From NCBI RefSeq assembly GCF_018118585.1, contig NZ_CP069421.1, forward strand, positions 1,426,001 to 1,490,000: a stretch of 64,000 nt of DNA, in the 5' to 3' direction. This DNA comes from Aristaeella lactis. Its GTDB lineage: Bacteria; Bacillota; Clostridia; Christensenellales; Aristaeellaceae. Below, one piece after another: positions 27,180-53,526 of this stretch. The position numbers were made by a program, and so were the translations under genes. Numbering within the stretch: the first letter of the stretch is position 1; each line of letters begins with the position of its first letter. Under the pieces are notes generated by a model, which saw nothing but the letters and a program-made list of their open reading frames with translations, searched no databases and was not told the origin of the DNA.

Positions 27180-27650
27180 ATGGATCAGCAGATTATCAAC
27201 GAGATCGACATCATGCCGATGAAGCCCGAGGATTACGATGACGTCCGCGCCCTGTGGATGACCATCCGCGGTTTCGGCATCCGGGCCCTGGACGATTCCC
27301 GGGAAGATATCGAACGTTTCATTCAACGTAATCCCACCACCAGCGTGGTGGCAAAGGCCGGGAACCGGATCATCGGAACGATCCTCTGCGGTTCCGACGG
27401 CCGTCAGGGTTATCTCTACCACGTCTGCGTCGCCAAGGAATACCGGCGGCGGGGCATCGGCACCCACATGGTCGGCTTCTGCATGCATCAGCTGAAAGCC
27501 ATGGGCATCAACAAGGTGGCCCTGATCGCTTTCACCGCCAACGACGTGGGCAACGCCTTCTGGAAGCAGATTGGCTGGAACCAGCGGGCGGATGTGTACT
27601 ACTACGACTTCGTGCTGAACGAAAAGAACATCACACGGTTTATATCTTGA
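27180..27650 (+). CDS. GNAT acetyltransferase in arginine operon, candidate N-acetylglutamate synthase
   Basis: A 156-residue GNAT placed between argC and argJ. Strand GYLYHVCVAKEY leads to RRRGIGTHMVGFCMHQL (acetyl-CoA loop), then NDVGNAFWKQIGW. Short stand-alone GNATs act as N-acetylglutamate synthase in some bacteria (for example Rv2747 of Mycobacterium tuberculosis), and the position makes that role plausible here, backing up the cyclic route through ArgJ. Its TGA is the first three bases of the hairpin element at 27649. Substrate not proven. Confidence 0.85.
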   Translation: MDQQIINEIDIMPMKPEDYDDVRALWMTIRGFGIRALDDSREDIERFIQRNPTTSVVAKAGNRIIGTILCGSDGRQGYLYHVCVAKEYRRRGIGTHMVGFCMHQLKAMGINKVALIAFTANDVGNAFWKQIGWNQRADVYYYDFVLNEKNITRFIS

Positions 27651-27682
27651 TCTGTCCAAATCTTTGATTTGGGTAACAGATC
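27649..27682 (+). repeat. GTA-bulge hairpin element, single hairpin
   Basis: GATCTGT and ACAGATC form the outer stem, CCAAATC and GATTTGG the inner stem, loop TTT, with GTA bulged on the 3' side. It overlaps the stop codon of the GNAT gene and precedes argJ. Same design as 29931, 31391, 31435, 35770, 35871, 53439 and 53481. Confidence 0.8.
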
Positions 27683-27704
27683 AGATGCAGCGAAGGAGAA
27701 GACA

Positions 27705-28952
27705 ATGAAGATTCGTAAGATTGCGGGCGGGTTCACCGCCGCCAAGGGGTTCAAAGCGGCCAGCTGTGAGGCGGCCATCAAGTACCAGAACCGCCGGGAC
27801 ATGGCCCTGCTCTTCACGGATGTTCCCTGCGCCGTGGCCGGCACCTTTACTTCCAATAAAGTGAAGGCCGCTCCGGTACTCTGGGATATGGACATTGTGA
27901 AGTCTGGAAAACCGGTTCGCGCGGTGGTGGTTAACACCGGCATTGCCAACGCCGGTACCGGTGCGGAAGGCATGCGCCTGTGCAGCGAAACCGCGAAGCA
28001 CACCGCTGAGATTCTGGGCATCTCCGCCAGCGAAGTCCTGGTGGGTTCCACCGGTGTCATCGGCCCGAATGTGCCTCTGGACCGGATCACCGCCGGTGTT
28101 TCCGTCATGGCAAAGAATCTTTCCGATTCCGCTGAAGCCGCCACCCTGGCCAGCAAGGCGATCATGACCACGGATACAGTGAACAAGGAATATGCTGTGG
28201 AGTTCGACCTGCCCGCTGCTTCCGGTGAAGGAACGGTCACCGTTCATCTCGGCGGCATGAGCAAAGGTTCCGGCATGATTCATCCAAACATGTGCACCAT
28301 GCTGGGCTATCTGGCTACAGACTGCGCCATTGATCCCGCCCTGCTGCAGAAAGCCCTCAGCGCCGTGATCAAGGATACATTCAATATGATCACTGTGGAC
28401 GGCGATACCAGCACCAACGACACGCTGCTGCTCCTGTCCAGCGGCCTGGCCGGCAACAAGCCGATCATCGCCGCGGATGAATCCTATGAGCTGTTCTGTG
28501 CCGCGCTCTTCAGCGTCTGCCACGACCTGGCAAGGCTCATGGCCTCCGATGGCGAAGGCGCCACCCACCTGATCGAGACCCGGGTTTTCAACGCCGATAC
28601 GAAAGAGAACGCCCGGATCCTTGCCCGTTCCGTGGTTGGTTCCAGCCTGGTCAAGGCCATGATCTACGGGAAGGACGCCAACTGCGGCCGCGTGCTCTGC
28701 GCGCTGGGCTATGCCGGTCCCGATTTCAACCCTGCCGATATCACGATCACCATGACCGGTGAAAGCGGTTCCGTCTGCTTCTATAAGGACGGCTGCGTGC
28801 AGCTCTTTGATGAGGAAAAAGCCCTGGCAATCCTTTCCGAGCATGATGTCCACTTTGACTGCGATATGAATATGGGCAGTGAGGAAGCCACCGCCTTCGG
28901 CTGCGACCTCACCTACGATTACGTCAAAATCAACGGCGACTACCGCACCTGA
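27705..28952 (+). CDS. argJ: ornithine acetyltransferase (ArgJ)
   Basis: A 415-residue precursor that cleaves itself into two chains. The autocatalytic Thr lies in KGSGMIHPNMCTMLGYL near residue 195; the residue before Thr is Cys where most homologues have Ala. GGFTAAKGFKA, STGVIGPNVP and ATHLIE also match. ArgJ moves acetyl from N-acetylornithine to glutamate; some also use acetyl-CoA. The start at 27705 follows GAAGGAG, 22 bases after the hairpin element. Confidence 0.97.
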   Translation: MKIRKIAGGFTAAKGFKAASCEAAIKYQNRRDMALLFTDVPCAVAGTFTSNKVKAAPVLWDMDIVKSGKPVRAVVVNTGIANAGTGAEGMRLCSETAKHTAEILGISASEVLVGSTGVIGPNVPLDRITAGVSVMAKNLSDSAEAATLASKAIMTTDTVNKEYAVEFDLPAASGEGTVTVHLGGMSKGSGMIHPNMCTMLGYLATDCAIDPALLQKALSAVIKDTFNMITVDGDTSTNDTLLLLSSGLAGNKPIIAADESYELFCAALFSVCHDLARLMASDGEGATHLIETRVFNADTKENARILARSVVGSSLVKAMIYGKDANCGRVLCALGYAGPDFNPADITITMTGESGSVCFYKDGCVQLFDEEKALAILSEHDVHFDCDMNMGSEEATAFGCDLTYDYVKINGDYRT

Positions 28953-28983
28953 TGGTCGACACAAAGGCTTTCAGGCAATCATC

Positions 28984-29014
28984 ATTATGCATTATGCATT
29001 ATGCATTATGCATT
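28984..29014 (+). repeat. tandem ATTATGC x4 before argB
   Basis: Four exact copies of the 7-mer ATTATGC and a partial fifth, ending 19 bases before the argB start codon. The array may affect promoter or ribosome access by slippage. Confidence 0.75.
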
Positions 29015-29033
29015 AAAAACCAGGAGGGTTTTT

Positions 29034-29930
29034 ATGCACAGTGATCTGACAAATATGGAACGGGCTGAAGTGCTTACCGCCGCCCTTCCCTACATCCGCC
29101 GTTATGCAGGCAAAGTGGTTGTTGTAAAGTACGGCGGCAACGCCATGATCAATGATCAGCTCAAGCAGCAGGTCATGGAGGACATTGTTCTGCTGTGGCT
29201 CATCGGTGTGCGCATCGTGCTGGTACACGGCGGCGGTCCTGAGATCAATGATCTGATGGATCGTCTCGGCAAAAAGCCGGAATTCGTGGACGGTCTGCGG
29301 GTCACTGACAAGGAGACCATGGACATCGTTCAGATGGTGCTGGCCGGCAAGATCAACAAAACGCTGGTCAACCTGCTGGAGATGAAGGGCGGCAAGGCCG
29401 TCGGCCTGTCCGGTATGGACGGACGCCTGCTGCAGTGCAGCATGAAGGATGAACGCCTGGGCTATGTGGGCGAGATCCAGAAGGTACACATCCAGCCGGT
29501 TACGGACCTGCTGGACCGCGGCTACATTCCTGTTGTCTCCACCGTCGGCTGCGACAAGAACGGCAACGCCTACAACATCAACGGTGACACCACCGCGGCC
29601 TATATCGCCGGCGCCCTGGGTGCTGAGAGGCTGATCATGATGACTGACATCGCCGGTGTGCTGAAGGATAAGAACGATCCTTCCACCCTGATCCCGCAGA
29701 TCACTCTGCCGGAGCTGCCTTCCCTGTATGACAGCGGTATTATCTCCGGCGGCATGATCCCGAAGGTGGAATGCTGCGCGAAGGCTCTTTCCCGCGGTGT
29801 CCGCAACGTGGTCATCATGGACGGCCGTGTTCCCCACTCCATCCTCATGGAGCTCCTCACCGACGAAGGTGCCGGCACTATGGTTTCCAACGGCGAAACC
29901 CCTGACGACCGTCAAAGCGGGTGGGAGTGA
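29034..29930 (+). CDS. argB: N-acetylglutamate kinase
   Basis: 298 residues. The amino-acid kinase fold shows VVVKYGGNAM near residue 27, LVHGGGPEIN, and the C-terminal GGMIPKVECC. It phosphorylates N-acetylglutamate, the second step of ornithine synthesis. NGDTTAAYIAGAL and the Asn/Asp pocket agree. The N-terminal helix (LTNMERAEVLTAALPYIRRYAGK) is the type that forms hexamers in arginine-inhibited kinases, so feedback by arginine is likely. The ATG at 29034 follows CAGGAGG. Confidence 0.97.
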   Translation: MHSDLTNMERAEVLTAALPYIRRYAGKVVVVKYGGNAMINDQLKQQVMEDIVLLWLIGVRIVLVHGGGPEINDLMDRLGKKPEFVDGLRVTDKETMDIVQMVLAGKINKTLVNLLEMKGGKAVGLSGMDGRLLQCSMKDERLGYVGEIQKVHIQPVTDLLDRGYIPVVSTVGCDKNGNAYNINGDTTAAYIAGALGAERLIMMTDIAGVLKDKNDPSTLIPQITLPELPSLYDSGIISGGMIPKVECCAKALSRGVRNVVIMDGRVPHSILMELLTDEGAGTMVSNGETPDDRQSGWE

Positions 29931-30053
29931 GCGTCAAAATATCAAATCCGCAGGATGAAGATATTTTGGTAACGCCACCCACAGCTACAGGAACCCGCGA
30001 TTGACGAGCCGTAGGCGAAGGCAGAGCGGCCGCGACGATCGCTGGGAGTGAGC
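29922..30053 (+). repeat. GTA-bulge element, long-loop copy, with flanking direct repeat
   Basis: The hairpin (29931-29975) begins at the base after the argB stop. GCGT pairs with ACGC and CAAAATATC with GATATTTTG, the GTA bulge is kept, and the loop holds an inner ATCC/GGAT stem. A GC-rich tail ends GCGACGATCGC. TGGGAGTGAGC occurs at both 29922-29932 and 30043-30053, like a duplicated target or repeat junction. Confidence 0.7.
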
Positions 30054-30076
30054 ATTAGAATCTTCCAGGCGCAAGC

Positions 30077-30118
30077 TGTCATTCTGAGCGAAGCCGTAGG
30101 CGGAGTTGAAGAATCTCC
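30077..30118 (+). repeat. TGTCATTCTGAGCG-type dispersed repeat
   Basis: The words TGTCATTCTGAGCG, AAGCCGTAGGCGGAG and GAAGAATCTCC match 40845-40886 (TGTCATCCTGAGCGGAGC...GAAGGATCTCC) with scattered changes. Similar sequences are common intergenic repeats in unrelated bacteria. Confidence 0.7.
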
Positions 30119-30137
30119 CCGCCCGCAGGCGACACCA

Positions 30138-30174
30138 TTAATTCTGAATTCTTAATTCTGAATTCTTAATTCTG
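30138..30174 (+). repeat. 14-bp tandem array before argD
   Basis: TTAATTCTGAATTC occurs twice in exact tandem and then TTAATTCTG. It ends 20 bases before the argD start. Confidence 0.75.
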
Positions 30175-30194
30175 ATAACTATCCGGAGGTTTTA

Positions 30195-31355
30195 ATGAAT
30201 ACTATCGAACTAGACCAACAGTTTGTCGCTTCCACCTACAAGCGTTTCCCCGTTGAAATCGTCAGCGGCAAAGGTTCCCTGGTTCAGGACGCAAACGGTA
30301 AGGAATACATCGATATGGGGTCCGGCATCGCCGTTTCCTCCTTCGGTGTGGCGGATGAACTCTGGATCGCCGCCGTGGAAAAGCAGATCCACAGCGTCCA
30401 GCACATGTCCAACCTGTTTTACACCGCACCCTGTGCCAACCTGGCAAAGCTCCTGTGCGAAAAAACCGGCATGTCCAAGGTTTTCTTCTCCAACTCCGGA
30501 GCCGAAGCCAATGAATGTGCCATCAAGGTAGCCCGGAAATGGGCGGCTGAAAACAAAGGCCCCGCCTGCTCCACCATCGTTACGCTGAAGAACAGCTTCC
30601 ACGGCCGGACACTGACCACCCTGGCTGCCACCGGTCAGGATCACTTCCATGAGCTGTTCCAGCCCCTGACCCCCGGCTTTGCTTCCTTTGCTGTCGGGGA
30701 TATGGACGCGCTGAAGGCCCTGTGTGCAAACGGAACGGTCGCAGCGGTGCTGATCGAACTGGTTCAGGGCGAAGGCGGCGTCATCCCGCTGGATCCTGCT
30801 TTTGTGAAGGAACTGGATGCTTACCTGAAGGAGCAGAACATCCTGCTCATGATCGATGAGGTCCAGACCGGCAACGGCCGCACCGGTTCCCTTTATGCCT
30901 ATATGCAGTACGGTCTGCATCCCGATGTGGTTTCCACCGCCAAAGGCCTGGCCGGCGGCCTGCCCATGGGGGCAACCCTGATGAGCGAGAAGGTCTGCAA
31001 CGTCCTTTCCTACGGCGATCACGGATCCACCTTCGGCGGCAACCCTGTGGCGGCTGCCGCGGCCATCTCCGTGGTGGAACGGCTGACGGATGATCTCCTG
31101 GCGGATGTGACCCGCAAAAGCAAACTGATCCGGAGCCTGCTGGAAGGCGCTCCCGGGATCGAGAGCGTAACCGGCCTCGGCCTGATGATCGGCATCAAGA
31201 CCGTGAAGCCCGCCGCGGAAGTGCTGGCTGCCTGCCGGGAGAGCGGCGTCCTCTGCCTCACCGCAAAGGACAAAGTCCGCCTCCTCCCCGCCCTGAACAT
31301 CCCGGATGACCTGCTCATCAAAGCCGCTGAAGTCATCAAGCAGGCTTGTGCATAA
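30195..31355 (+). CDS. argD: acetylornithine aminotransferase
   Basis: A 386-residue class III PLP enzyme that makes N-acetylornithine from the semialdehyde with glutamate as donor. SNSGAEANECAIKVAR binds the PLP phosphate, LIDEVQTGNGRTG holds the Asp for the ring nitrogen, and STAKGLAGGLPMG contains the Schiff-base Lys near residue 239. The ATG at 30195 follows CCGGAGG. It sits between two hairpin elements. Confidence 0.97.
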   Translation: MNTIELDQQFVASTYKRFPVEIVSGKGSLVQDANGKEYIDMGSGIAVSSFGVADELWIAAVEKQIHSVQHMSNLFYTAPCANLAKLLCEKTGMSKVFFSNSGAEANECAIKVARKWAAENKGPACSTIVTLKNSFHGRTLTTLAATGQDHFHELFQPLTPGFASFAVGDMDALKALCANGTVAAVLIELVQGEGGVIPLDPAFVKELDAYLKEQNILLMIDEVQTGNGRTGSLYAYMQYGLHPDVVSTAKGLAGGLPMGATLMSEKVCNVLSYGDHGSTFGGNPVAAAAAISVVERLTDDLLADVTRKSKLIRSLLEGAPGIESVTGLGLMIGIKTVKPAAEVLAACRESGVLCLTAKDKVRLLPALNIPDDLLIKAAEVIKQACA

Positions 31356-31375
31356 ACAAACTCATAATTATGAAT

Positions 31376-31482
31376 TATGAATTGTTGAGCAGTTGTCCAA
31401 ATCTTTGATTTGAGTAACAACTGCCATGCTACAGCTGTCAAAGTGCCTTGGGCACTTTGGTAACAGCGATCGCAGAATTCTG
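31376..31482 (+). repeat. GTA-bulge element, two-hairpin copy
   Basis: Hairpin 1 (31391-31421): AGTTGT/ACAACT outside, CCAAATC/GATTTGA inside, loop TTT, GTA bulge. Linker TGCCATGCTACAG. Hairpin 2 (31435-31466): CTGT/ACAG, CAAAGTGCC/GGCACTTTG, loop TTG, GTA bulge. Ends CGATCGCAG. It is about 93% identical to 53427-53526, and CTGT/ACAG here is CCGT/ACGG there, a compensating change. AT words TGAATT flank both ends. Confidence 0.85.
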
Positions 31483-31518
31483 AATTACGATTCCATTTAT
31501 TGTATCGGAGGAACATGT

Positions 31519-32580
31519 ATGGCATACTTGGTTCTCGCCAACGGTACCATCTTCGAAGGCAAGCGTATCGGCGCGCCTGTCGACCGGATCGGTGAGTTGG
31601 TCTTCACCACCGGCATGGAAGGCTACCTGGAAACCCTGACAGATCCCAGCTATTACGGCCAGATTGTCACCCAGACCTTCCCGATGATCGGCAACTACGG
31701 CGTCATTGAGGAAGACTTTGAAGGCAACAGCACACTCTTCGGCTACATTGTCCGGGAGCTGTGCGACACGCCTTCCAACTTCCGTTCCGCCTATCCCCTG
31801 AACGATTACCTGGTGGCCAAAGGCATACCCGGCCTGTGCGGTGTGGATACCCGCGAGATTGTACGGATCACCCGCGAAGAGGGCGTTATGAACGCCATGA
31901 TCTGCGATGAAGTGCCTGCAGACCTCAGCGCAATCCGCAGCTTCACCGTGAAGGATGCCGTTGCGTCTGTTTCATCCAATATAAAGGAATTCTTCCCCGC
32001 AGAAGGCGTGGAAAAGTGTCGTGTCGCTCTGATCGACTACGGCGCCAAACACAACATCATCCGCAGTCTGGAGAAGCGCGGCTGTTCTGTCACAGTCTGG
32101 CCTTCCAGTACCACTGCCGAAACTATCCTGGAGTCTGATCCGGACGGCATCATGCTGTCCAACGGCCCCGGAGATCCGAAAGAAAACAAGGAATGCATAG
32201 CCCAGCTGAAAAAGCTGATCGGAAAGCTGCCGGTTTTCGGAATCTGCCTCGGTCACCAGCTGACAGCCCTTGCCCTGGGTGGTGACACCATCAAGCTGAA
32301 ATACGGTCATCGCGGCGGCAACCAGCCCGTCAAGGATCTGGCAGCCGGCCGTACCTATATCACATCCCAAAACCACGGCTACGCGGTTGTCGCGGACTCC
32401 CTGAAGGGGATCGGCACGGAATCCTTCCGGAACGCCAATGACGGCAGCTGCGAAGGCATGGATTATCCGGACCTGAAATGCTTCACGGTCCAGTTCCATC
32501 CCGAAGCCGCCTCCGGTCCCCGGGATACCGCGGTTCTGTTTGACCGGTTTGTTGAAAATATGGCAGGAGGGAGGAACTGA
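31519..32580 (+). CDS. carA: carbamoyl-phosphate synthase small subunit
   Basis: A 353-residue glutaminase subunit. The N-terminal half is the CPSase small-chain domain; the C-terminal half is a class I amidotransferase with nucleophile Cys in FGICLGHQ (near residue 246) and His/Glu in FHPEAASGP. It feeds ammonia to CarB for carbamoyl phosphate, used for arginine and pyrimidines. ATG 31519 follows CGGAGG. Its stop and the carB start are 2 bases apart. Confidence 0.98.
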   Translation: MAYLVLANGTIFEGKRIGAPVDRIGELVFTTGMEGYLETLTDPSYYGQIVTQTFPMIGNYGVIEEDFEGNSTLFGYIVRELCDTPSNFRSAYPLNDYLVAKGIPGLCGVDTREIVRITREEGVMNAMICDEVPADLSAIRSFTVKDAVASVSSNIKEFFPAEGVEKCRVALIDYGAKHNIIRSLEKRGCSVTVWPSSTTAETILESDPDGIMLSNGPGDPKENKECIAQLKKLIGKLPVFGICLGHQLTALALGGDTIKLKYGHRGGNQPVKDLAAGRTYITSQNHGYAVVADSLKGIGTESFRNANDGSCEGMDYPDLKCFTVQFHPEAASGPRDTAVLFDRFVENMAGGRN

Positions 32581-32582
32581 TC

Positions 32583-35500
32583 ATGCCTAAAGATACTTCG
32601 ATTCAAAAGGTTCTTGTCATCGGTTCCGGCCCCATCGTCATCGGACAGGCCGCCGAGTTTGACTACGCCGGTGCCCAGGCCTGCCGCGTGCTGAAAGCGG
32701 AAGGCATCAACGTGGTCCTGGTGAACTCCAACCCCGCCACCATCATGACCGACCAGCACCTGGCGGATGAGATCTACCTGGAGCCGCTGAATGCCGCCAC
32801 TGTACGCCGCGTCATCGAAAAGGAACGTCCGGACGGACTGATCGCCGGTCTCGGCGGCCAGACCGGTCTGACCCTGGCCATGCAGCTGAGCAAAGACGGT
32901 ACCCTGGAGGAATTCGGTGTCCGCCTGCTGGGTTCTCCCATTGAAGCCATCGAGCGAGCGGAAGACCGGGAAAAGTTCCGGGAAACCATGCTGAAGGCCG
33001 GCCAGCCCTGCGTGCCCTCCGGCATCGCGGAAACCCTGGAGGAAGCCCTGGACTGGGCAGAAAAGATCGGCTATCCGGTCATCGTGCGTCCCGCCTACAC
33101 TCTGGGCGGCAGCGGCGGCGGTATCGCGGCCGATGTGGAGGAAATGCGCGTTATCGCCCGTGCCGGCCTGGATGCCTCTCCCATCACCCAGATTCTGGTG
33201 GAAAAATGCATCTCCGGCTGGAAAGAGATCGAGTTTGAAACCATGCGGGACGCGCAGGGCAACGTCATTGCCGTCTGCTCCATGGAAAACGTGGACCCCG
33301 TGGGAATCCATACCGGCGACAGCGTGGTCGTGGCTCCTGCCCTGACCCTGTCCGATAAGGAATACCAGATGCTCCGTACCGCGTCGCTGGATATCATCAG
33401 TGCCATCGGCATCGTCGGCGGTTGCAACTGCCAGTTCGCCCTGAATCCGGATTCTTTCGAGTATGCGGTCATCGAAGTCAATCCCCGCGTCAGCCGTTCC
33501 TCCGCCCTGGCCAGCAAGGCCACCGGCTACCCCATTGCCAAGATTACCACCCGTCTCGCCCTGGGCTACTCTCTGGATGAGATTGCCAACGATATTACCG
33601 GCAAAACCTGTGCCTGCTTCGAGCCCACCGTGGACTATGTGGTGGTTAAGTTCCCGAAGTGGCCCTTTGATAAATTCTACGGTTCCTCCCGCCGCCTGGG
33701 CACCCAGATGAAGGCGACCGGTGAGGTCATGGCTATCGGCCAGCGTTTCGAGGAAGCCCTGATGAAGGCTGTCCGCGGCGCTGAGATCTCCCTGGATACG
33801 CTGAATGCCCCTGCCCTGACGGATGAACCTATCCGCGACCGCCTGGCCCGCCAGGATGACCGTCGTCTCTTCACGGTTTTCGAGGCCCTGAAGCAGGGCA
33901 TCACCGTGGACGAGATCTTTGACATCACAAAGATCGACCGCTTCTTCCTCTACCGCCTGCGTGCCATGGCGGAGCTGGAAATGCGGACCGAAGGCAAAGG
34001 CCTGCAGCCCGGCGACTATGAAACCTTCAAGAAAATGGGCTATCCGGACAAGGCCATCATGCGCATCACCGGTGCGAAGGAAGTTCCCGGCTGGCAGATG
34101 AGCTATAAGATGGTGGATACCTGCGGTGCGGAGTTTGCCGCGGAAACGCCTTACTTCTACTCCTGCACGGACAAGGCCTGCGAGTCCCGGAGCCTGAAGC
34201 GTTCCGGCCGTCCCGTGGTCATCGTGCTGGGTTCCGGCCCCATCCGCATCGGCCAGGGTATCGAGTTCGACTACTCCTCTGTCCACTGCGTGTGGACCCT
34301 GCGCCGTATCGGCTATGACGTGGTCATCATCAACAACAACCCGGAAACCGTCTCCACGGACTATGACACCGCGGACCGGCTGTATTTTGAGCCCCTCACG
34401 CCTGAAGATGTCATGAACGTCATCGCCGTGGAGAATCCCGTGGGCGTTGTGGTGGCCTTCGGCGGCCAGACTGCCATCAAGCTGACCCAGTTCCTGGACT
34501 CCCAGGGCATCCGTATCCTGGGCACCAGCGCTGAATCCATCGACATCGCTGAGGACCGGGAGCGTTTTGACGAACTGCTGGAGCAGTTCAACATCCGCCG
34601 TCCCCGCGGCATGGGCGTCCGCACCATGGAAGAAGCCGTTGCCGCAGCGGAAGGCCTGGGCTATCCCGTACTGCTGCGTCCTTCCTACGTCATCGGCGGT
34701 CAGAACATGACCATCTCCCGTAACCGGAAGCACACCGTGGACTATATGACCCGGATCCTTTCCGGCGGCATTGAGAATCCGGTGCTTGTGGACCAGTACC
34801 TTCCCGGTATTGAGCTGGAGGTGGACGTCATCTCCGACGGGCGGGATGTTCTGATCCCCGGCATCATGGAACACATTGAGCGTGCCGGCGTCCACAGCGG
34901 CGACTCCATCGCTGTCTATCCGCCCTTCAACCTCACCGAAAAGTTCCAGGAAAAGATCTGCGATATCTCCACCAAGCTCGCTCTGGCGCTGGGTACCAAG
35001 GGACTGGTGAATATCCAGTACCTGATCTATGACAACGAACTGTATGTCATTGAGGTCAATCCCCGGGCCTCCCGGACGATTCCTTATATTTCCAAGGTCA
35101 CCGGCGTGCCCATGGTGGATCTCGCCTCCCGCGTCATGCTGGATGAGCCCCTGAAGGATCTCGGGTACGGCACAGGCCTCTATCCCGCTCCTCCCTACTG
35201 CGCCATCAAGGTGCCGGTCTTCTCCTTCGAGAAGCTGAATGATGCCGACTCCATTCTCGGCCCGGAAATGAAATCCACCGGTGAAGTGCTTGGCATCGGT
35301 ATCACCAAGGCGGAAGCGCTCTTCAAGGGCCTGTCCGCTGCGGGTTTCCACCTGCCTACCGTCCGTGAGAAGGAGCACACCGGCGTCCTCCTGTCCGTTG
35401 AGGATGAGGACTTCCCGGATGCCATCGCCGTAGCCAAACGCTGCTATGACCAGGGCATCAGCGTTTACGCCACAAAGGATACCGCCCGGGCTATCTCCGC

Positions 35501-35786
35501 CGTCGGCATCCATGTGACGCCTGTGGCTGACCCGAAGATCAGCGATGAGATCATCGGTCTGATGGAAAACGGCTCCGTAAACTACATCATCTACACCGGC
35601 GCCGTCAAGGATGACACCGTGGGCGACTATACCGTGCTCCACCGTAAGGCCATGGTCCTGGGCATTCCCTGCATGACCTCCCTGGACACCGCCAACGCTC
35701 TGATGGACATTCTCGGTTCCCGCTTCACTCTGCAGAACACCGAGCTGGTGGATATCAACTCGATGCGCAGGTGTCAGAATCTTTGA
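32583..35786 (+). CDS. carB: carbamoyl-phosphate synthase large subunit
   Basis: A full-length, 1067-residue chain with two homologous ATP-grasp halves (first: GSGPIVIGQAAEFDYAG near residue 12; second: GSGPIRIGQGIEFDYSS near residue 550) and a C-terminal MGS-like allosteric domain. EVNPRVSRSSALASKATGYP and EVNPRASRTIPYISKVTG are the paired metal/ATP segments. The last codons (RRCQNL, then TGA) are encoded by the first tandem copy of the hairpin element, so the native C-terminus has been replaced or trimmed there. Confidence 0.98.
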   Translation: MPKDTSIQKVLVIGSGPIVIGQAAEFDYAGAQACRVLKAEGINVVLVNSNPATIMTDQHLADEIYLEPLNAATVRRVIEKERPDGLIAGLGGQTGLTLAMQLSKDGTLEEFGVRLLGSPIEAIERAEDREKFRETMLKAGQPCVPSGIAETLEEALDWAEKIGYPVIVRPAYTLGGSGGGIAADVEEMRVIARAGLDASPITQILVEKCISGWKEIEFETMRDAQGNVIAVCSMENVDPVGIHTGDSVVVAPALTLSDKEYQMLRTASLDIISAIGIVGGCNCQFALNPDSFEYAVIEVNPRVSRSSALASKATGYPIAKITTRLALGYSLDEIANDITGKTCACFEPTVDYVVVKFPKWPFDKFYGSSRRLGTQMKATGEVMAIGQRFEEALMKAVRGAEISLDTLNAPALTDEPIRDRLARQDDRRLFTVFEALKQGITVDEIFDITKIDRFFLYRLRAMAELEMRTEGKGLQPGDYETFKKMGYPDKAIMRITGAKEVPGWQMSYKMVDTCGAEFAAETPYFYSCTDKACESRSLKRSGRPVVIVLGSGPIRIGQGIEFDYSSVHCVWTLRRIGYDVVIINNNPETVSTDYDTADRLYFEPLTPEDVMNVIAVENPVGVVVAFGGQTAIKLTQFLDSQGIRILGTSAESIDIAEDRERFDELLEQFNIRRPRGMGVRTMEEAVAAAEGLGYPVLLRPSYVIGGQNMTISRNRKHTVDYMTRILSGGIENPVLVDQYLPGIELEVDVISDGRDVLIPGIMEHIERAGVHSGDSIAVYPPFNLTEKFQEKICDISTKLALALGTKGLVNIQYLIYDNELYVIEVNPRASRTIPYISKVTGVPMVDLASRVMLDEPLKDLGYGTGLYPAPPYCAIKVPVFSFEKLNDADSILGPEMKSTGEVLGIGITKAEALFKGLSAAGFHLPTVREKEHTGVLLSVEDEDFPDAIAVAKRCYDQGISVYATKDTARAISAVGIHVTPVADPKISDEIIGLMENGSVNYIIYTGAVKDDTVGDYTVLHRKAMVLGIPCMTSLDTANALMDILGSRFTLQNTELVDINSMRRCQNL

Positions 35787-35971
35787 TTCTGGTAACACCT
35801 GCCATGCTACAGGAGCCCATCGGTGGCAAGCATATGCGAAGCCGGCGTGGCTGCGACGATCGCATGCGCAGGTGTCAGAATCTTTGATTCTGGTAACACC
35901 TGCCATGCTACAGGAGCCCATCGGTGGCAAGCATATGCGAAGCCGGCGTGGCTGCGACGATCGCATGCGCA
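35762..35971 (+). repeat. GTA-bulge element, tandem duplicate of 101 bp
   Basis: Two direct copies, period 101 bases (hairpins at 35770-35799 and 35871-35900). Stem GGTGT/ACACC with CAGAATC/GATTCTG, loop TTT, GTA bulge, then TGCCATGCTACAG, a GC-rich tail and GCGACGATCGC. The stem bases differ from all other copies but still pair. The carB TGA lies in the loop of the first copy. Confidence 0.85.
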
Positions 35972-35991
35972 GATAAAACCAACTTCAATTC

Positions 35992-36028: not shown

Positions 36029-36033
36029 CCGCC

Positions 36034-36060
36034 ATTATGAATTGTGAATTATGAATTGTG
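36034..36060. repeat. TGAATT tandem array
   Basis: ATTATGAATT, GTGAATT and ATGAATTGTG follow each other directly after the terminator and before the GH27 gene stop. Confidence 0.6.
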
Positions 36061-40932: not shown

Positions 40933-41400
40933 TGTCATTCCGAGCAAAGTGGGGAACGATCCGAGTGGTGACCCAGTGGGTCATTCGCCACAGGCGAAAA
41001 CGAGGTGGAGTCCTGACGCGCGCGGTGCGCGGGACGGGGATTCCGTCCGCGGTGCGTGTGCGTTTCCTTACCGAAACAAGCAATGCGAAGCGCTCCAGGG
41101 CGAACCTCTGATGACCGCCAGTGGGCGAAGAACCGATGACCTCCAGTGGAGGGAATCTCATCGATTCTGAGGTCAACTGAAAGGGAATGGTCTCCCCAGT
41201 GGGGAGCCATGACCATTGAAGTTGCGGGAAGAAATATCATCAGAGGGTTTGGAGCGCCCGGAGAAAGAGCCAGTGGCTCTTTCTCAGCGAAAAACGGGCG
41301 GCAGCCCCGAGAGGTCAATCGAAAGGGAGCTATCTCCCCAGTGGGGAGTTGCGACCATTGAGATTGCGGTAAGTGCATCGATTGAGGTTGCGGGAGGAAT
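40933..41400. repeat. array of CCAGTGG-centred palindromes
   Basis: Six hairpins share the centre CCA-G-TGG (the second is shortened): 40969-40983 (arms TGACCCA/TGGGTCA), 41116-41127 (CGCC/GGCG), 41140-41152 (CCTCCA/TGGAGG), 41192-41206 (CTCCCCA/TGGGGAG), 41261-41285 (12-bp perfect arms) and 41334-41348. Stem sequences differ yet each pairs. The 60 bases around 41170-41230 and 41311-41370 are diverged copies of each other (GAGGTCAA..GAAAGGGA...GACCATTGA.. TTGCGG). No plausible gene is present in this gap. Confidence 0.75.
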
Positions 41401-41464: not shown

Positions 41465-41520
41465 ACAATTGTTCATTGTTCATTATTAATTGTTCATTTA
41501 GCGCCAAATCCGAAAAATCA

Positions 41521-44827: not shown

Positions 44828-44895
44828 AAAGCCTGCCTTTCTGCCTTCCGTCATCATTTCATCTGTCGAAGCAGTTCATTCGGGATGGCTGCAGA

Positions 44896-45417: not shown

Positions 45418-45441
45418 CTTTTGTTTCCTCGCTGAATTCTG

Positions 45442-46251: not shown

Positions 46252-46283
46252 TAGTTACGTCTCCTCAAATTCCTGTTCCGGGA

Positions 46284-47069: not shown

Positions 47070-47106
47070 ACTTATCCTCCTGTATATCCTGGTTTGTTTA
47101 TCAGAG

Positions 47107-47697
47107 TCACTTTACAAACGCAAAGAGATAAGCGTTTTCTGTCTCAGCTTTCTTTTTTGTTTTCAGGCCGGCCTGCTCCGCAAGCGAAATGATCTCATCC
47201 GGTGTGTCCGGATAAACGCGGATCTTTCTGTTCCCCATATCGATCCATTCGCTCTGGTTTTTGTCTATGGACAAACAGAAAAGCCCGTTGTCATTCAGCA
47301 GTGAGTATACTTTTCCGATCACTCGTCCCTTGTCCCGGAAATGCATCATCGTCAGCGAGGAATAGACCACGTCGAACGTCCCTGTAAACTGGCAGGTTAA
47401 GAAGTCATCGCAGATCAGGGATATGTTCGGGTACGGCCGGAGGTTTTCCCTCGCTCTTTCAATGGTTTTTGCCGACAGGTCTATCCCCGTCAGATGCCCG
47501 CATTGCCCGGCTGTTTTTGCCGCAAGCCTTCCTGTCCCGACGCCTATTTCCAGCACGTCTTTCGATGGATCCAGTTCCATCAGGTCAAGAAATGCCTGCC
47601 CGTCCCATGATTCCATGTATTTCTGCAAAACCGGCGGGTCACGGAAAGGGTCGTTATTTTCCTCAATCAGCAGATCATAATGGGTTTTGATGTCCAT
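47107..47697 (-). CDS. class I SAM-dependent methyltransferase
   Basis: 196 residues, with motif I as VLEIGVGTGRLAA near residue 48, acidic motif II as LTGIDLSAKTI, GTFDVVYSSLTMMHF as motif IV, and the C-terminal strands. It fits the Methyltransf_25/11 type that acts on small molecules. It starts 18 bases after the kinase-like gene. Confidence 0.88.
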   Translation of the reverse strand: MDIKTHYDLLIEENNDPFRDPPVLQKYMESWDGQAFLDLMELDPSKDVLEIGVGTGRLAAKTAGQCGHLTGIDLSAKTIERARENLRPYPNISLICDDFLTCQFTGTFDVVYSSLTMMHFRDKGRVIGKVYSLLNDNGLFCLSIDKNQSEWIDMGNRKIRVYPDTPDEIISLAEQAGLKTKKKAETENAYLFAFVK

Positions 47698-47715
47698 ATG
47701 CGTTTCCCTCTGTAG

Positions 47716-48225
47716 TCAGAACAGCTCCCGGAGAATTTTGTCAGCGCATTCTTCCGGGGAAAGCAGGCTCGTATCCACCCTTATGCTGTACCGGATATCC
47801 TTCGCCATCAGTTCCGCCTGTTCATCCGACTGCGATTCATACCGGTCTCCCCGGTCAATATTGCGCTGCCTGCAGATATCCAGCGGGCAATATACCTCTA
47901 CGATGTCCAGCGGGTTATTCCCCAGGATCTCTTTCATGCGTTCGTAATGGGGCGCAACGCCTTCACGCTCCACCAGGATGCTGTCTATGATCACGTTTTT
48001 CCCCATATCCGAAAACAGTTTCGCGGTATGGTACATCATGATGATCACTTCGCCAAGGTATTTCCAGTAATCTCCCTGCAGGTATTCCTCTCCGATCATC
48101 TCCTGGAACAGGTCGTTGGCCACAACATAGAAGAAAACGTCCCGGCGTGCCTGCAGCGCTTCCACAATGGATGTTTTACCGGAGCTGGTGACCCCGTTCA
48201 GATAGATGATCCGTCCTTTTTCCAT
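47716..48225 (-). CDS. chloramphenicol phosphotransferase-like kinase
   Basis: 169 residues with Walker A in LNGVTSSGKTSI near residue 12, IIDSILVER as the strand holding a catalytic Asp, and the lid RQRNIDRGDRYESQSDEQ. The order fits CPT-like proteins that phosphorylate chloramphenicol or nucleosides. Drug resistance is not demonstrated. It is first in the - strand run ending at 44315; GGGAGGG precedes ATG 48225. Confidence 0.8.
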   Translation of the reverse strand: MEKGRIIYLNGVTSSGKTSIVEALQARRDVFFYVVANDLFQEMIGEEYLQGDYWKYLGEVIIMMYHTAKLFSDMGKNVIIDSILVEREGVAPHYERMKEILGNNPLDIVEVYCPLDICRQRNIDRGDRYESQSDEQAELMAKDIRYSIRVDTSLLSPEECADKILRELF

Positions 48226-48330
48226 GACAGAACCCTCCCTGCGGTTTTGATCAGGCAGTAAGCCTGTGGTTTTGCTGAAGCTCTGATTGGTTCCTGGCTA
48301 TGATCATATCATACTTGCCATGTTTTCCCA

Positions 48331-48366
48331 AAGAAAATCTCCGTCAGCTTGTAACAGCTGCCGGAG
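48331..48366 (-). terminator. possible terminator of the S41 peptidase gene
   Basis: CTCCGGCAGCT and AGCTGACGGAG pair with one mismatch around GTTACA; the - strand continues ATTTTCTTT. Confidence 0.55.
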
Positions 48367-48394
48367 ATATCCTCTTTTTTGTCTTTTTTCCCGG

Positions 48395-49753
48395 TTATTT
48401 GCTCCTGAGGTATTCCAGTGCTTTTGCCATTCCCGCATCGCGGCGGTCGATCACGTCCCTTACTGTCCACGGAAGCCTTATATCGGGCGAGAAGCCCTTA
48501 TTGTATATATCCTCGCCGTTCTGGGCATAGCACCGCCTGGTGCAGATCCGGAATGATCCCCCGCTTTCAAGTTTGAAGAATAAGGGCTGTCCCGAAGAGC
48601 CCCCTGTATTGCCTCCGATAAACACCGCGTTGGTATGTGCCTTCATCACATCCACAAAATCCTCCGCTGCTGAAAATGTCAGTTCGTTCATCAGCACAGC
48701 AACCGGCCCGTTCAGCTTTCCGGGAGCCTGGTTCTTCTTTGTGCCGATTTCCCTTTTATAGCAGATATGGCGGCTCATTCTGAAGGCCCTCAGGCTTTCC
48801 TCATCCAGGTGCTTTGCCTCCAGTTCTTCAGCGGTCGCGTTCCTGAAATCATCCCTGCACGCTGCCCAGGCCCTGAAAGTCGGCTCATAAACCTGTGTCT
48901 CGGCGCCGCAGCTTTCAAAATCACCGTCTATGAACATCGCCGCGATCGCGTCACCGTTCCCGCTGTTCCCGCCGCCGTTCCCCCTGACATTGATAATATA
49001 TCCCCTTGCCTTTTTCAACTCGTCAAAGCAGGCATATACTTTGCCGGGCATATCATTGTCCATAAAGGAACTGATCGTTATCACCGCGATATCGTCCTCA
49101 GTCATTTCAATGCTGCAGCTGTCTCCCTTCAGGAAATCCCCCTTCAGGATGGTTCTGTTCTTATTGTTGGCGTTGAACAGATACTCCATGTTGCACCAGT
49201 GCAGATTCACGGGATTCTCCCGGGTCAGTTCAATGTCAAACTGCTCCCCGTCCTTTTCAAAGGTGCAGTTCAGCCTGCTTCCTGCCCTGCCGATCATCAG
49301 GCCGTTCATTGCGTTGACCCGGCATGCCTCCTCATGGGCATGCCAGATATAGGGATAGACCTTTTCTCTCACATACTCGGAAGCATCCATTCCGTCTATC
49401 TTCTTCAGGATGCTGTACAGGCTGATTCTGTCCTTGTATTCTTCCGTCACATTCAGTACGGCAATCCCTTCATCGAATTGATACAGCACGACCGGAAGCA
49501 TCGAACAGTACTCCGGATCCTGCATCAGATCCATCGGCATACTGACATCCGTATGACCGTCTCCCAGGAGAGCGAGGAAGCGCGTAAGCTCCCGGTAGTA
49601 TTCATACCTGTCCTTTGCCGCCAGAACCCTGGGCAGGGCCTTCCTGTATTCTCCGTCCCAGTCGATCTTTACCTTGTCCCAGAACGCAAAGTTATATTCC
49701 GCTTCTTTCCAGATCAGCGAAAGCTCATAGATTTTTTGTTCATCGGTCAGCAT
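48395..49753 (-). CDS. S41-family peptidase-like protein
   Basis: 452 residues from ATG 49753 (GGGAG upstream; GTG at 49768 is less likely). The C-terminal 200 residues are the S41/tail-specific-protease fold: YIINVRGNGGGNSG, then MNELTFSAAEDFVDVMK with the candidate nucleophile Ser and a downstream GGNTGGSSGQ. There is no signal peptide or PDZ domain that I can see, so the target is cytosolic or unknown. It ends the gene pair begun by the long sigma factor at 51405. Confidence 0.8.
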   Translation of the reverse strand: MLTDEQKIYELSLIWKEAEYNFAFWDKVKIDWDGEYRKALPRVLAAKDRYEYYRELTRFLALLGDGHTDVSMPMDLMQDPEYCSMLPVVLYQFDEGIAVLNVTEEYKDRISLYSILKKIDGMDASEYVREKVYPYIWHAHEEACRVNAMNGLMIGRAGSRLNCTFEKDGEQFDIELTRENPVNLHWCNMEYLFNANNKNRTILKGDFLKGDSCSIEMTEDDIAVITISSFMDNDMPGKVYACFDELKKARGYIINVRGNGGGNSGNGDAIAAMFIDGDFESCGAETQVYEPTFRAWAACRDDFRNATAEELEAKHLDEESLRAFRMSRHICYKREIGTKKNQAPGKLNGPVAVLMNELTFSAAEDFVDVMKAHTNAVFIGGNTGGSSGQPLFFKLESGGSFRICTRRCYAQNGEDIYNKGFSPDIRLPWTVRDVIDRRDAGMAKALEYLRSK

Positions 49754-49785
49754 TTTCGTTTCTCCCACACACAGTGATTTGACTT

Positions 49786-51405
49786 TTACTTTTCAACAAT
49801 CATGTAGCATCCTTCCGCGCCAAGTCCGTTTTCCGGCGGGGTCAGCAGGCCTTTTTCGATCAGGCACTCCACCACGGCGTCAAGTACCGGCATGCTGGCA
49901 AGATAATTGGCATAGGTCCATTCACCCATCAGGTAGTCGGGAATCGCTTTCCTGTAAAGCGCCGCCAGTTCATCCGCTGTGCTTTCCGCCGCGCTCTTCA
50001 GGCTGCTGCTGTCAAGGCGGTAACTGAGATCAAACAGATGGCTGTCCTTTTGTTCACTGACCAGGATCTTCGTATACAGCATATCACCGTCACGGTACAG
50101 ATACCCGCTCTCGATAGCTTTGGCCGCGTGCTCCTTATCCTTTTCAGAAATCGCTGCCACATTCAGTCCTTTGATCGCGCGGATAGCCAGCTGAATCTGC
50201 GGATCTTTGGAGATATCAGCTTCAGCACAGAAGTGTTTCCGGATGCGTGTGATATAGATATTCTCCATGTAAATCCGGGAATATCCGCAAAGGTTGTCAG
50301 CGTCGGTTCCGTCACAGCCCCCGCCGAAATACTTCCCGATATCCACATATCCGTATACCGTAAAGGGCCTGTTTGTTTTTTGGATATCCTTTAGGTACTT
50401 CTGCTCCAGGATCGAAGCAACGGCACCGGGATATACAGATGCCAGATGCTTTATCTGCTGCCAGAGGATCAGGTTCAGATCCACCTTTTTGTTCAGGTAC
50501 GGAAAAGCGAGATACTCTTCCTTATGCTTTTCAATATGCTCTGTGATAATGTCGCAGATTTGGGGCACCCGGGCTGTATACAGCTCCATTGCTTTTTCAA
50601 TCACATCTTTATCAAGGAGAATAAAGTTGATCGCGTATCTGCCGTTGTCCAGGCGGCGCAGCAGGCCGTACTCACCATTCATGCCTTTTGTCAGGATTTC
50701 CAGTTCCTCTTCCACATACACCGTCGGCACATTGAGTTCTTCAGCGATCTCCGACGCGCTTCTCGGTTTCTGATGGCAAAGCCATACGATATGCCTGGAA
50801 AACTGCCGCGTGCATACCTGCCGCGGATCTCCCCAGGAAGGCCGTCCGGTTCCCCATATCACAAAATCAATATTCTCCAGCGCCACAGGTCTGTGATCCA
50901 TCTCTTTCATTTCTTCCATCTCACCTCTGATCTTCTGCCTTGCCGAAAACAAACGCTGCCGGACAGTGCCTTCCCCGACATCCAGTTTTTTCGCGATCTC
51001 TGCTGTGGATAGTCCGTCCAGGTAAAAGGCGATCATGACTTCGCGGTATGCCTTTGTCAGGAAAGCAATACGTCGGCAGATCAGGATCAGTGCGTCCGAA
51101 GCATCGTCTTCTTCCGCTGCTTCAGTGTCCTGCATTGCCTTTTCCGGATCTCCCTCATAGAACACAGCCGAATGTTTGCTGCGTTTTTGGGAATAATCGG
51201 CATAAACATTTCGCGCCACTTTCCATATGAACGGATAAACGTTCCCGATCTCTCCGTCAGTATCCGCCGCCTTCAGGAGGGCATAAACGATATCTGAGCA
51301 AAGCTCCTCCGCTTCATAGCTGTCATTCGTTCGGGCATAGCAAAATCCGTACAGCTTATCAAGCAGTCCGTCATCGATTGTTTTCAGCAAATCTCTTTTA
51401 ACCAT
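49786..51405 (-). CDS. ECF sigma factor with long C-terminal extension
   Basis: 539 residues, three times the usual ECF length. Residues 1-165 are a normal factor: region 2 near NDSYEAEELCSDIVYALLKA and region 4 HTH in GLSTAEIAKKLDVGEGTVRQRL. A winged-helix-like segment (SEIAEELNVPTVYVEEELEIL) follows near residues 215-245, then about 290 residues that look alpha/beta. Long C-terminal extensions replace anti-sigma factors in some ECF groups. The GGAG site and the palindrome at 51416-51439 sit in its leader. It is 33 bases from the S41 peptidase gene. Confidence 0.88.
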   Translation of the reverse strand: MVKRDLLKTIDDGLLDKLYGFCYARTNDSYEAEELCSDIVYALLKAADTDGEIGNVYPFIWKVARNVYADYSQKRSKHSAVFYEGDPEKAMQDTEAAEEDDASDALILICRRIAFLTKAYREVMIAFYLDGLSTAEIAKKLDVGEGTVRQRLFSARQKIRGEMEEMKEMDHRPVALENIDFVIWGTGRPSWGDPRQVCTRQFSRHIVWLCHQKPRSASEIAEELNVPTVYVEEELEILTKGMNGEYGLLRRLDNGRYAINFILLDKDVIEKAMELYTARVPQICDIITEHIEKHKEEYLAFPYLNKKVDLNLILWQQIKHLASVYPGAVASILEQKYLKDIQKTNRPFTVYGYVDIGKYFGGGCDGTDADNLCGYSRIYMENIYITRIRKHFCAEADISKDPQIQLAIRAIKGLNVAAISEKDKEHAAKAIESGYLYRDGDMLYTKILVSEQKDSHLFDLSYRLDSSSLKSAAESTADELAALYRKAIPDYLMGEWTYANYLASMPVLDAVVECLIEKGLLTPPENGLGAEGCYMIVEK

Positions 51406-51415
51406 TCATATCTCC

Positions 51416-51439
51416 GTGAGTGTTGATCAACGCTCTCAC
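51416..51439 (-). promoter_or_regulatory. palindrome in the sigma-factor leader
   Basis: GTTGATCAAC is a perfect 10-base centre, flanked by GTGAG and CTCAC with one unmatched base on each side. It ends 11 bases before the start codon, so it may be an operator or block ribosomes. Confidence 0.55.
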
Positions 51440-51509
51440 TTATATAGTCTGTCCTTTTTCGTAAATGTTAGGTCATACCGAATAATACATTTTTCTTTCC
51501 CTGTTGGTT

Positions 51510-52523
51510 TCAGAGGAAGTACTCAAATTTGGTTTCGTCTTTATGGAACGGATATTCATCCCCGTTGCAGCCCTGAAGGATGATTTCATCATCGCTGTAA
51601 CGTTTAACGATCCACTGCATCATTCCGCAGGCATCCGGCTGATCCTGGCCGTAGCTGATCGTAACAGTGCCGTCCTTATCTTCCTGGAGCTGGCGGCCGA
51701 AGTCGAAGAAAAAACCGCAGAAAAAGTCGGAATTATCCTTATAGTTCCGCATCCGGAAATACTGCCCGGAGGATTTCAGGCCCAGTTCAAACGGCGCATT
51801 GTAGCTACAGCCGCAATAGATGTTGGTATCCTGCGGATAAATGCTGAAAATATACTCAACGTTTCCGGTACACAAACTGATTCTGAAGGAATCATCCGAA
51901 ACAGACATAACAACACCCTTCCGCCACTCTTCCAGTGCCCGGCGGATACCGACCTCCGAAACCGTATGAAGCGGCTTGTCGCCGTGATTGATCAGGAAGC
52001 TGTCCAGCCGGTCCATCTGATCCAGCCGTTCCCGCCGGAATTCTTCGCCCATGAGGGCTTCAAATTCCGGGTGATTGGTATAAACTGTGTCATTATACTG
52101 ATAGGCATAGAACGTGGGCTCTTCGCGGCTTATCCTGCAGTCCCGCTCACAGATGGCGGTCAGTTTCTTCACAGAACCGTTTCCCTTGTATACCCTGGCG
52201 CCGATCGTATGCTTGTCCCGGCCGTAATACTCCAGGAGCAGCTTTTCCGTCTCAACGATCTCGCAGCAGCCTTTGCGGTAGATGCCACAGACAAAGCGGA
52301 CACCTTCCTTTTCGAAGTTGGTAACATTGACAAGCAAATCGTCGGTTGACACGCAAAACAGTCGGCTGATAGCGACGATCTTCCGGATATCCGGTACAGC
52401 CTGGTCCAGTTCCCACTTGGAAACAGTCTGCCTTGTCGCACCGAGCATCTCTCCGAATTCTTCCTGGGACATGCCGCGGGATACGCGGATCTCCTGGATC
52501 TTACGGCCAAGCGTCATATTCAT
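51510..52523 (-). CDS. XRE-family regulator with large C-terminal domain
   Basis: 337 residues from ATG 52523 (site AAAGGGCGG; ATG 52517 is possible). Residues 1-60 are the helix-turn-helix (RGMSQEEFGEMLGATRQTVSKWE). The following 270 residues form a mixed domain with many aromatic and Cys residues (FVCGIYRKGCCE, RVYKGNGSVKKL), which could sense a ligand. It is divergent from the LUD/MFS genes at 52784; shared regulation is possible. Confidence 0.85.
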   Translation of the reverse strand: MNMTLGRKIQEIRVSRGMSQEEFGEMLGATRQTVSKWELDQAVPDIRKIVAISRLFCVSTDDLLVNVTNFEKEGVRFVCGIYRKGCCEIVETEKLLLEYYGRDKHTIGARVYKGNGSVKKLTAICERDCRISREEPTFYAYQYNDTVYTNHPEFEALMGEEFRRERLDQMDRLDSFLINHGDKPLHTVSEVGIRRALEEWRKGVVMSVSDDSFRISLCTGNVEYIFSIYPQDTNIYCGCSYNAPFELGLKSSGQYFRMRNYKDNSDFFCGFFFDFGRQLQEDKDGTVTISYGQDQPDACGMMQWIVKRYSDDEIILQGCNGDEYPFHKDETKFEYFL

Positions 52524-52710
52524 TCCGCCCTTTCTGACAGGACCGCGGCGCGTTTGCTCCGGCAGTCCGTTTGTTTCATCTTCCGAAAACATATTATCTG
52601 ATATCCGGAGAGAAAACAACCAAGTCTGCGTGGAAATTTGTCGCTTCACAGTTGACAAACTGATTCATACGGATCCGTCTGTCGTTTTTCTGCTTTCCTG
52701 CCCGGCAGGC

Positions 52711-52739
52711 TTGAAGGTCCTTTCCTTTTTTGTTATTAT
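52711..52739 (+). promoter_or_regulatory. putative promoter of LUD-domain gene
   Basis: TTGAAG (52711-52716), 17 bases, TATTAT (52734-52739), then AGGAGG before ATG 52784. Confidence 0.55.
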
Positions 52740-52783
52740 CGCAATAAAGAGTGATTTGCAGACACGATAACAGGAGGATGGAA

Positions 52784-53413
52784 ATGAATCCGAACATCAC
52801 CAAACGGAATGAACTCCTCGCGCAAAAGGTCATCAAGGGACTGGAATCCCGCAATATGACCGGTTATTACGCCGCCTCAAAGGAAGAAGCACTGAAGCTC
52901 GCCCTCAGCCTGATTCCGGAATACAGCACCGTTACCATGGGCGGCGCCATGAGCGCTCATGAGATCGGCCTGGTCAATGCCGTAAAGTCCGGCAATTATC
53001 ATTTCATCGACCGGGATACCGCGGAAGACAAGCGTGCCGCCATGCTCGCCGCCTATGACGCGGATGTGTTCCTGTCCAGCGTAAACGCCATGACGGATGA
53101 CGGGATCCTCGTCAACATCGACGGGAACTCCAACCGTGTTTCCGCCATCTGCCAGGGACCGAAGCAGGTCCTCTTCATCGTGGGAATGAACAAGATCTGC
53201 GGTGACCTGGACAGCGCCATGAAACGGGCCCGCAACGTGGCCGCGCCGACCAACGCCCAGCGTTTCGGCCTGTCCACGCCCTGTGCGAAGACCGGTAAGT
53301 GCATGGACTGCAAGAGCCCTGATACCATCTGCTGCCAGTTCCTGATCACCCGGTTCAGCCGCCACACCGGCCGAATCCACGTGATCCTTGTCAACGACAC
53401 CCTCGGCTTCTGA
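52784..53413 (+). CDS. LUD-domain (LutC-like) protein
   Basis: A 209-residue member of the LUD family, whose lactate-utilisation relatives include LutC. GYYAASKEEALKLALSLI and VTMGGAMSAHEIGL give the phosphate-binding region, NRVSAICQGPKQVLFIVG the next strand, and the tail CAKTGKCMDCKSPDTICC holds a Cys cluster that could bind a metal. The family is usual in anaerobes, though its substrate is not certain. The ATG at 52784 follows CAGGAGG. Confidence 0.88.
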   Translation: MNPNITKRNELLAQKVIKGLESRNMTGYYAASKEEALKLALSLIPEYSTVTMGGAMSAHEIGLVNAVKSGNYHFIDRDTAEDKRAAMLAAYDADVFLSSVNAMTDDGILVNIDGNSNRVSAICQGPKQVLFIVGMNKICGDLDSAMKRARNVAAPTNAQRFGLSTPCAKTGKCMDCKSPDTICCQFLITRFSRHTGRIHVILVNDTLGF

Positions 53414-53426
53414 TGGTTGTATTATG

Positions 53427-53526
53427 AATTGTTGAGCCGTTGTCCAAATCTTTGATTTGGGTAACAACTGCCATGCTACAGCCGTCAAAGTGCCAAAGGC
53501 ACTTTGGTAACGGCGATCGCAGAATT
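53427..53526 (+). repeat. GTA-bulge element, two-hairpin copy
   Basis: Hairpin 1 (53439-53468): GTTGT/ACAAC with CCAAATC/GATTTGG, loop TTT. Linker TGCCATGCTACAG. Hairpin 2 (53481-53513): GCCGT/ACGGC with CAAAGTGCC/GGCACTTTG, loop AAA. Both have the GTA bulge and the element ends CGATCGCAG. Near-identical to 31376-31482 with compensated stem changes. Confidence 0.85.

Follow-up and report, generated by a model that had tools for sequence, protein, structure and literature searches.

The 64,000-nt window analysed here (Aristaeella lactis, contig NZ_CP069421.1, positions 1,426,001 to 1,490,000) holds a set of hairpins with an unpaired GTA, most of them in the arg-car operon. They are copies of a dispersed non-coding repeat of ~90 nt rather than a feature peculiar to the arginine operon. 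We consider it probable, at roughly 70%, that the repeat is a family of non-autonomous mobile elements resembling repetitive extragenic palindromic (REP) sequences and miniature inverted-repeat transposable elements (MITEs), with one or two hairpins whose GTA stays unpaired between the basal and the upper stem. On the given strand the full unit consists of TGAG, a first hairpin (H1), the linker CCATGCTACA, a second hairpin (H2) and GATCGC. H1 has an 8-bp outer stem, an upper stem and a 3-nt bulge, most often GTA; H2 has a 5-bp outer stem, an upper stem and a GTA bulge.

An earlier note on the window had placed eight such hairpins at five places, and all eight are present. A mechanical scan (inner stem of at least 7 pairs, GTA, outer stem of at least 4) recovers seven; the eighth, at 31391, has one C/A mismatch and falls below the cut-off. 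The seven compare with a mean of 0.03 (two in total) when GTA is replaced by the other 63 trinucleotides, and the predicted DNA folds of the five stretches have z-scores of -3.0 to -5.4. The copies do not form one kind of unit: there are two full doubles, a tandem variant, a single hairpin and a distant 121-nt relative (Table 1).

The repeat extends well beyond the operon. A 161-nt query around the GNAT-argJ gap found 22 places on both strands of the A. lactis genome, the query site included. Model R1 has 34 matches in this genome and 46, 30, 32 and 27 in the sister species G022, G035, G007 and G001. The 31 listed A. lactis copies are spread from 0.37 to 3.30 Mb, so the reported concentration in the arg-car operon holds for the window only. 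The linker pattern, allowing one mismatch, occurs in 26 of 61 genomes (25 of 37 in the genus, A. lactis included, and 1 of 24 outside it); a reversed control gave seven matches in total, so a lone match in a genome may be accidental. Among named public genomes 26 stretches were found, all titled Clostridia or Clostridiales and, by title, mostly from ruminant gut samples. Four viral contigs (L267, L271, L273, L475) match R1 and two (L270, L275) match it more weakly; these may be phage or host pieces. Right-end pattern matches in 85 viral stretches are mostly chance when tested with R1. About 15 loci taken as chance linker matches were excluded from the locus reading and from the gene-neighbour and array counts, the neighbour count also excluding one L252 row; two of the excluded loci are L270 and L275, so that the exclusion was partly wrong.

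An Rfam search of the window at gathering thresholds returned one tRNA only, and a search of 11 loci at E<=1 gave four sub-gathering matches, all away from the element. As read from the sequence, the hairpins are followed by no T run of the kind found in intrinsic terminators, but by GTAAC...GATCGC. A search of open-access literature found no title or abstract opening that describes the element.

The earlier note had argued that pairing is kept while sequence changes and had read this as selection on the fold; the wider set of copies bears out both. The alignment holds the 73 distinct simple doubles from 85 parsed H1 copies. In it 97.8% of 1962 pair cells are paired; the figure is 76.0% for shuffles and never above 45.7% for slid controls. 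Both sides have changed in 23 of 27 pairs, and double-change cells number 445 (137 in shuffles); kinship among copies inflates such counts, and the structure was derived from the same sequences. One measure, further pair types, is weaker than the others (55 against 50.5, a value that 6 of 500 shuffles attain). There are 31 distinct H1 arm pairs. Stems that differ between species at the same place, with both arms changed, are found at the carB end (A. lactis and G064, the latter with GGAGGCGT / ACGCCTCC) and between secY and adk (G062, G014 and G030). These speak for a real constraint on the fold, although separate insertions at one place are possible.

Comparison of relatives shows that copies have been gained or lost. 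All 26 fetched relatives with argD upstream lack the argD-carA copy (three further fetched loci have no argD, and some 10 genomes with a carA-like match lay outside the sample), and several of their gaps are occupied by bare arrays of tandem 7-mers. The 50-nt GNAT-argJ insertion is shared with G007; G035, G022, G001 and G033 have an exact empty join of TTTATA to GGAGAAG, and G016, G064 and G015 have no insertion in a diverged gap (eight relatives displayed in all). The unit after argB is single in A. lactis, present as two copies plus a partial one in G007 and G035, partial only in G022, absent in G001, a variant in G016 and a remnant in G064. At the carB end, the other 10 relatives displayed besides G064 have no unit; G022 has a full double further downstream and G016 an apparent remnant. 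One G022 copy sits in a 7-mer array whose G035 counterpart lacks it, with four bases also different at the join. Among 15 G022 copies compared with sampled G035 stretches, one has a clean empty site (L161), one is shared in a full-length match (L143) and one is shared but differs by the module described below (L167); at L159, L110 and L163 the element is absent from G035 and the flanks have diverged, and the rest could not be aligned on both sides.

The small mobile repeat that the note had offered as one option is thus supported by empty sites at GNAT-argJ, at argD-carA and at one G022 copy. That the direction was insertion is suggested by the many empty relatives, and not by a tree. An RNA specific to the operon is rejected on this pattern of presence and absence: besides the missing argD-carA copy, the other arg-operon copies come and go, which counts against the proposed part in processing or stabilising the operon mRNA. 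So does orientation, which in A. lactis goes with the inferred fork and not with adjoining genes. The A. lactis operon has itself been altered, with GNAT and argJ, which overlap in insertion-free relatives, now separated, and carB now supplied with its stop.

Orientation follows the inferred replication fork. The given strand lies on the lagging side in 28 of 31 listed copies in A. lactis (G000), 35 of 41 in G022 and 24 of 28 in G035; this total of 87 of 100, taken from 110 R1 matches, includes copies shared by descent, which are not independent. In sampled stretches of the A. lactis genome the GC skew changes sign near 0.85 and 2.59 Mb, and all three rRNA operons are directed away from 2.59 Mb, on the inferred leading strand; for these two reasons 2.59 Mb was taken as the origin. 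For G022 and G035, origin and terminus come from sampled GC skew alone.

Genes do not account for the A. lactis bias. For the 26 of 29 examined copies with both neighbours called, the neighbours relative to the element are ++ 9, -- 9, -+ 4 and +- 4 (26:26 in total), and 65% of called genes are on the leading strand. This set, made with a simple custom gene caller, leaves outside it the carB tandem and the copy at 1.016 Mb. It does not agree with the note's rule that every copy follows the stop of a gene in its own orientation. Within the window the rule also breaks down, since the carB copy lies in the reading frame and gives the stop, and the hairpin at 27648 contains the GNAT stop. Most neighbours in G022 and G035 are antisense, and gene effects on orientation are possible there. 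The note had named independence of strand and gene, without covariation, as speaking against a structural RNA; the A. lactis copies are gene-independent, yet strongly covarying and fork-oriented.

Copies also carry further structured modules. A second double hairpin stands in the tip of H1 in five loci (L015, L021, L024, L026, L035). A module of ~105 nt takes the place of the bulge in H1 (L013, L023) or H2 (L015, L022, L032), and in L110 and L168 a module copy lies in reverse orientation ahead of the linker. At the orthologous copy L167 there is GTA in G022 and the module in G035. A helix in this second module, searched for with the outer two pairs fixed and three pairs free to vary, is fully paired in 24 of 26 copies with seven arm combinations; of the other two, one has a G.T and one a mismatch.

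One copy, near 2.608 Mb in A. lactis, has an IS110-family transposase gene (DEDD_Tnp_IS110, Transposase_20) inside its second module (L077:2326-3450). The non-coding end of this IS110 element holds GGTCAATCG, as does the second module, and possibly encodes a bridge-RNA guide that targets the repeat.

Mobility could work as follows. A trans-acting enzyme that recognises the fold would bind the folded single strand, and this strand would be inserted into single-stranded DNA exposed at the replication fork. Such insertion would account for the fork bias and for modules being nested where bases are unpaired. A copy landing directly after a stop codon would be tolerated, and might either dampen the upstream gene's expression or protect it, an effect that E. 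coli REPs can have.

Several results weigh against this account, beyond the shared descent already mentioned. The first concern the enzyme. Of 53 Y1-transposase (Y1_Tnp) matches in 41 genomes, 32 loci were examined, and in none does an element lie within 1.5 kb or less; on these loci a link to REP-associated tyrosine transposases (RAYTs) is rejected. Element-free genomes G009, G017 and G018 have Y1 genes; G004, at 70% completeness, has 17 copies and no Y1 match. The fork rule has its own difficulties. The dnaA gene, on the inferred leading strand, is at 1.31 Mb (G000:C1:1306829-1307311), ~1.3 Mb from the inferred origin. Stretches with skew of the wrong sign occur at 0.2 Mb in A. lactis, at 0.2 and 0.4 Mb in G035 and at 2.25 Mb in G022, and all 13 exceptions to the rule fall within ~0.6 Mb of the inferred origins. 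Outer-stem mismatches on the given strand, counted over 87 H1 and 102 H2 parsed, are 22 G.T to 1 A.C, the two being scored alike (among distinct H1 arm pairs, from a parse that favoured G.T, 12 to 1, or 11 to 0 after removal of one non-element and one out-of-register row); ten other mismatches occur in outer stems and 36 in inner stems. The excess of G.T favours the given strand as the folded one, and with the lagging template carrying the other strand a simple IS200/IS605-like model fits poorly. Finally, ten copies in relatives immediately follow the stop codon of an upstream gene in sense orientation, and those in the ribosomal secY-adk gap are unlikely to obey the fork rule.

No autonomous copy with an internal gene came to light. 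The left end was located in 80 of 122 linker matches, at 38/39, 44, 58, 120, 140-145, 197 or 268 nt, with no gene-sized gap, and the others were judged partly by eye. Those 42 include chance matches, post-stop copies without TTGAG and one copy interrupted by a 1.7-kb insertion with an IS110-family gene. Separately, four Y1_Tnp genes in A. lactis (L009-L012, open reading frames of 253-289 aa) have GGGACGG-type palindromes nearby and perhaps form another, REP-like system.

The strand evidence pulls two ways, and both a local RNA role and an RNA route of movement are live rivals. The first would make the post-stop hairpins functional RNA sites, serving as translation roadblocks, processing sites or 3' stabilisers of mRNA, the fold being kept by selection. 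The ten sense copies suit it, as do the carB-end unit with compensated stems in A. lactis and G064 and the secY-adk copies of three species (3 of 30 genus loci), whose stems differ in sequence yet are compensated. A prophage origin of the post-stop copies was rejected, their neighbours reading as chromosomal (SecY, Adk, RpsB, Tsf and others, named from sequence). A similar placement has consequences in E. coli, where REPs lying no more than 15 nt from a stop are reported to stall ribosomes (Liang 2015, as cited in PMC12306157). The A. lactis copies are indifferent to gene direction, however, and presence at any given gene is patchy. A local RNA effect of the copies directly after stop codons is possible; as an explanation of the family, functional RNA sites seem unlikely.

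By the RNA route a transcribed master copy would fold as RNA and be reverse-transcribed at the fork. The 22:1 ratio in outer stems is what folding of RNA would produce, and fork orientation is also in keeping with it. The inner stems have no such asymmetry (6 G.T to 8 A.C, scored in the same way), and no master copy or promoter was identified; a reverse transcriptase was not searched for. We regard this retro-mobilisation as quite unlikely.

Spread might instead need no enzyme, if the units moved when 7-mer arrays recombined or their strands annealed at the fork, and template switching kept the stems perfect. About 70 arrays lie in 654 kb of sampled A. lactis sequence, often with elements beside or inside them. 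In three genomes 42 of 57 copies have 7-mer periodicity on one side or more (5 of them on both), compared with 0.6% of random 28-mers. A filled and an empty site differ within an array, as described for G022 and G035, and the number of tandem units varies. But of 54 bare arrays (GAATTnT-type) in A. lactis stretches the 33 that can be oriented show no fork bias (18:15), the GNAT-argJ and post-stop copies have no array, and template switching alone does not explain the excess of G.T over A.C. Enzyme-free spread seems improbable. Chance, or recent near-identical duplication, is scarcely credible: some copies are nearly identical (D1, 92% over 120 nt; D2, 100%), but the hairpin excess over expectation, the 31 H1 arm pairs and the compensatory changes contradict it.

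For the non-autonomous mobile element that we prefer, several known systems offer partial likenesses. Miniature IS200/IS605-type elements carry a pair of like-oriented subterminal hairpins that contain unpaired bases, and their insertion is related to the fork. The present element has such hairpins and an orientation bias with the inferred fork, but no tnpA with element ends occurs among the 32 Y1 loci, and the G.T asymmetry points away from the lagging template. The double-hairpin elements of Allomyces mitochondria are likewise mobile and nested, in organelle DNA; we know of no fork-orientation test of them. Integron attC sites are also folded single strands with extrahelical bases. The outer stems here depart from the attC consensus, and an integrase was not searched for.

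REPs of the E. coli, RAYT-associated type are described (PMC8266576, PMC6006769) as short, dispersed extragenic hairpins in which a bulge separates a basal from an upper stem, sometimes near stops. The element too is an imperfect, bulged palindrome in many, mostly extragenic copies. It differs in its direct rather than head-to-head hairpins, its nested modules and the lack of a linked Y1 gene among the loci examined. The rule given in PMC6006769, GTAG or GTGG 0-2 nt 5' of the hairpin, finds nothing here on the given strand; the complementary strand has a GTAG 4 nt from H1 but none ahead of H2. A second type, the CGTC-tagged REPs, has an unpaired CGTC tag, stems of 8-9 bp, loops of 4-5 nt and mostly head-to-head dimers, and Firmicutes are not among the five phyla listed for them (PMC3733652). 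CGTC or TGTC on the 5' side of the hairpin and the lack of an associated transposase are common to both, but the element's CGT/TGT is paired, in the outer stem below the GTA bulge. As each type has a defining feature that the element misses, we file it as a variant within the palindromic-repeat kind. That it is instead a new class, a folded single strand of RNA or DNA moving with replication, nesting modules in its bulges and loop and having no transposase of its own, is possible though rather unlikely.

Palindromic repeats are common in bacteria, and this family bears on the way in which they spread when no transposase is linked to them. With complete genomes, empty sites, covariation, a fork rule and nested modules all in one genus, strand, timing and enzyme become testable there.

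Table 1. Copies of the GTA-bulge repeat and of its second module in the window (positions of the whole stretch)
Feature	Position	Strand	Details
Single-hairpin insertion, GNAT-argJ gap	27645..27694	+	Outer stem TGATCTGT / ACAGATCA, GTA bulge; R1 35 bits
Distant 121-nt relative, 3' of argB	29922..30053	+	Outer stem GCGT / ACGC, GTA bulge; end GACGATCGC
Full double element, argD-carA gap, within 7-mer array	31386..31473	+	R1 97.2 bits
Two tandem 101-nt units, carB end	35764..35964	+	GCAGGTGT / ACACCTGC; R1 63.3 bits each
Free-standing, self-nested second-module copies	41098..41380	+	GCGAA..., GAGGTCAAyC ... GrTTGCGG; direct repeat D8, covarying helix; borders by eye
Full double element within 7-mer array	53433..53520	+	Between an open reading frame end (53413) and start (53534); R1 99.4 bits

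The GNAT stop codon is brought by the insertion that contains it. The post-argB unit, a weak R1 match (E 0.59), has the 11-nt direct repeat TGGGAGTGAGC on both flanks; 47 nt of it are identical across A. lactis, G007 and G035, where the surrounding match is 90-93%. The carB-end tandem is flanked by ATGCGCAG repeats, and the carB reading frame ends at 35786, within its first hairpin. The last full double has a counterpart in similar setting on the related contig L241. Tandem 7-mer arrays (GAATTnT, TTCAnTn and similar) lie at 31360-31385, 53418-53432, 36030-36060 and 41470-41480. At 54837-54915 and 58092-58165 there are direct-repeat pairs with GGGACAGA / GTGACA motifs, perhaps copies of the GGGACGG-type palindromes.

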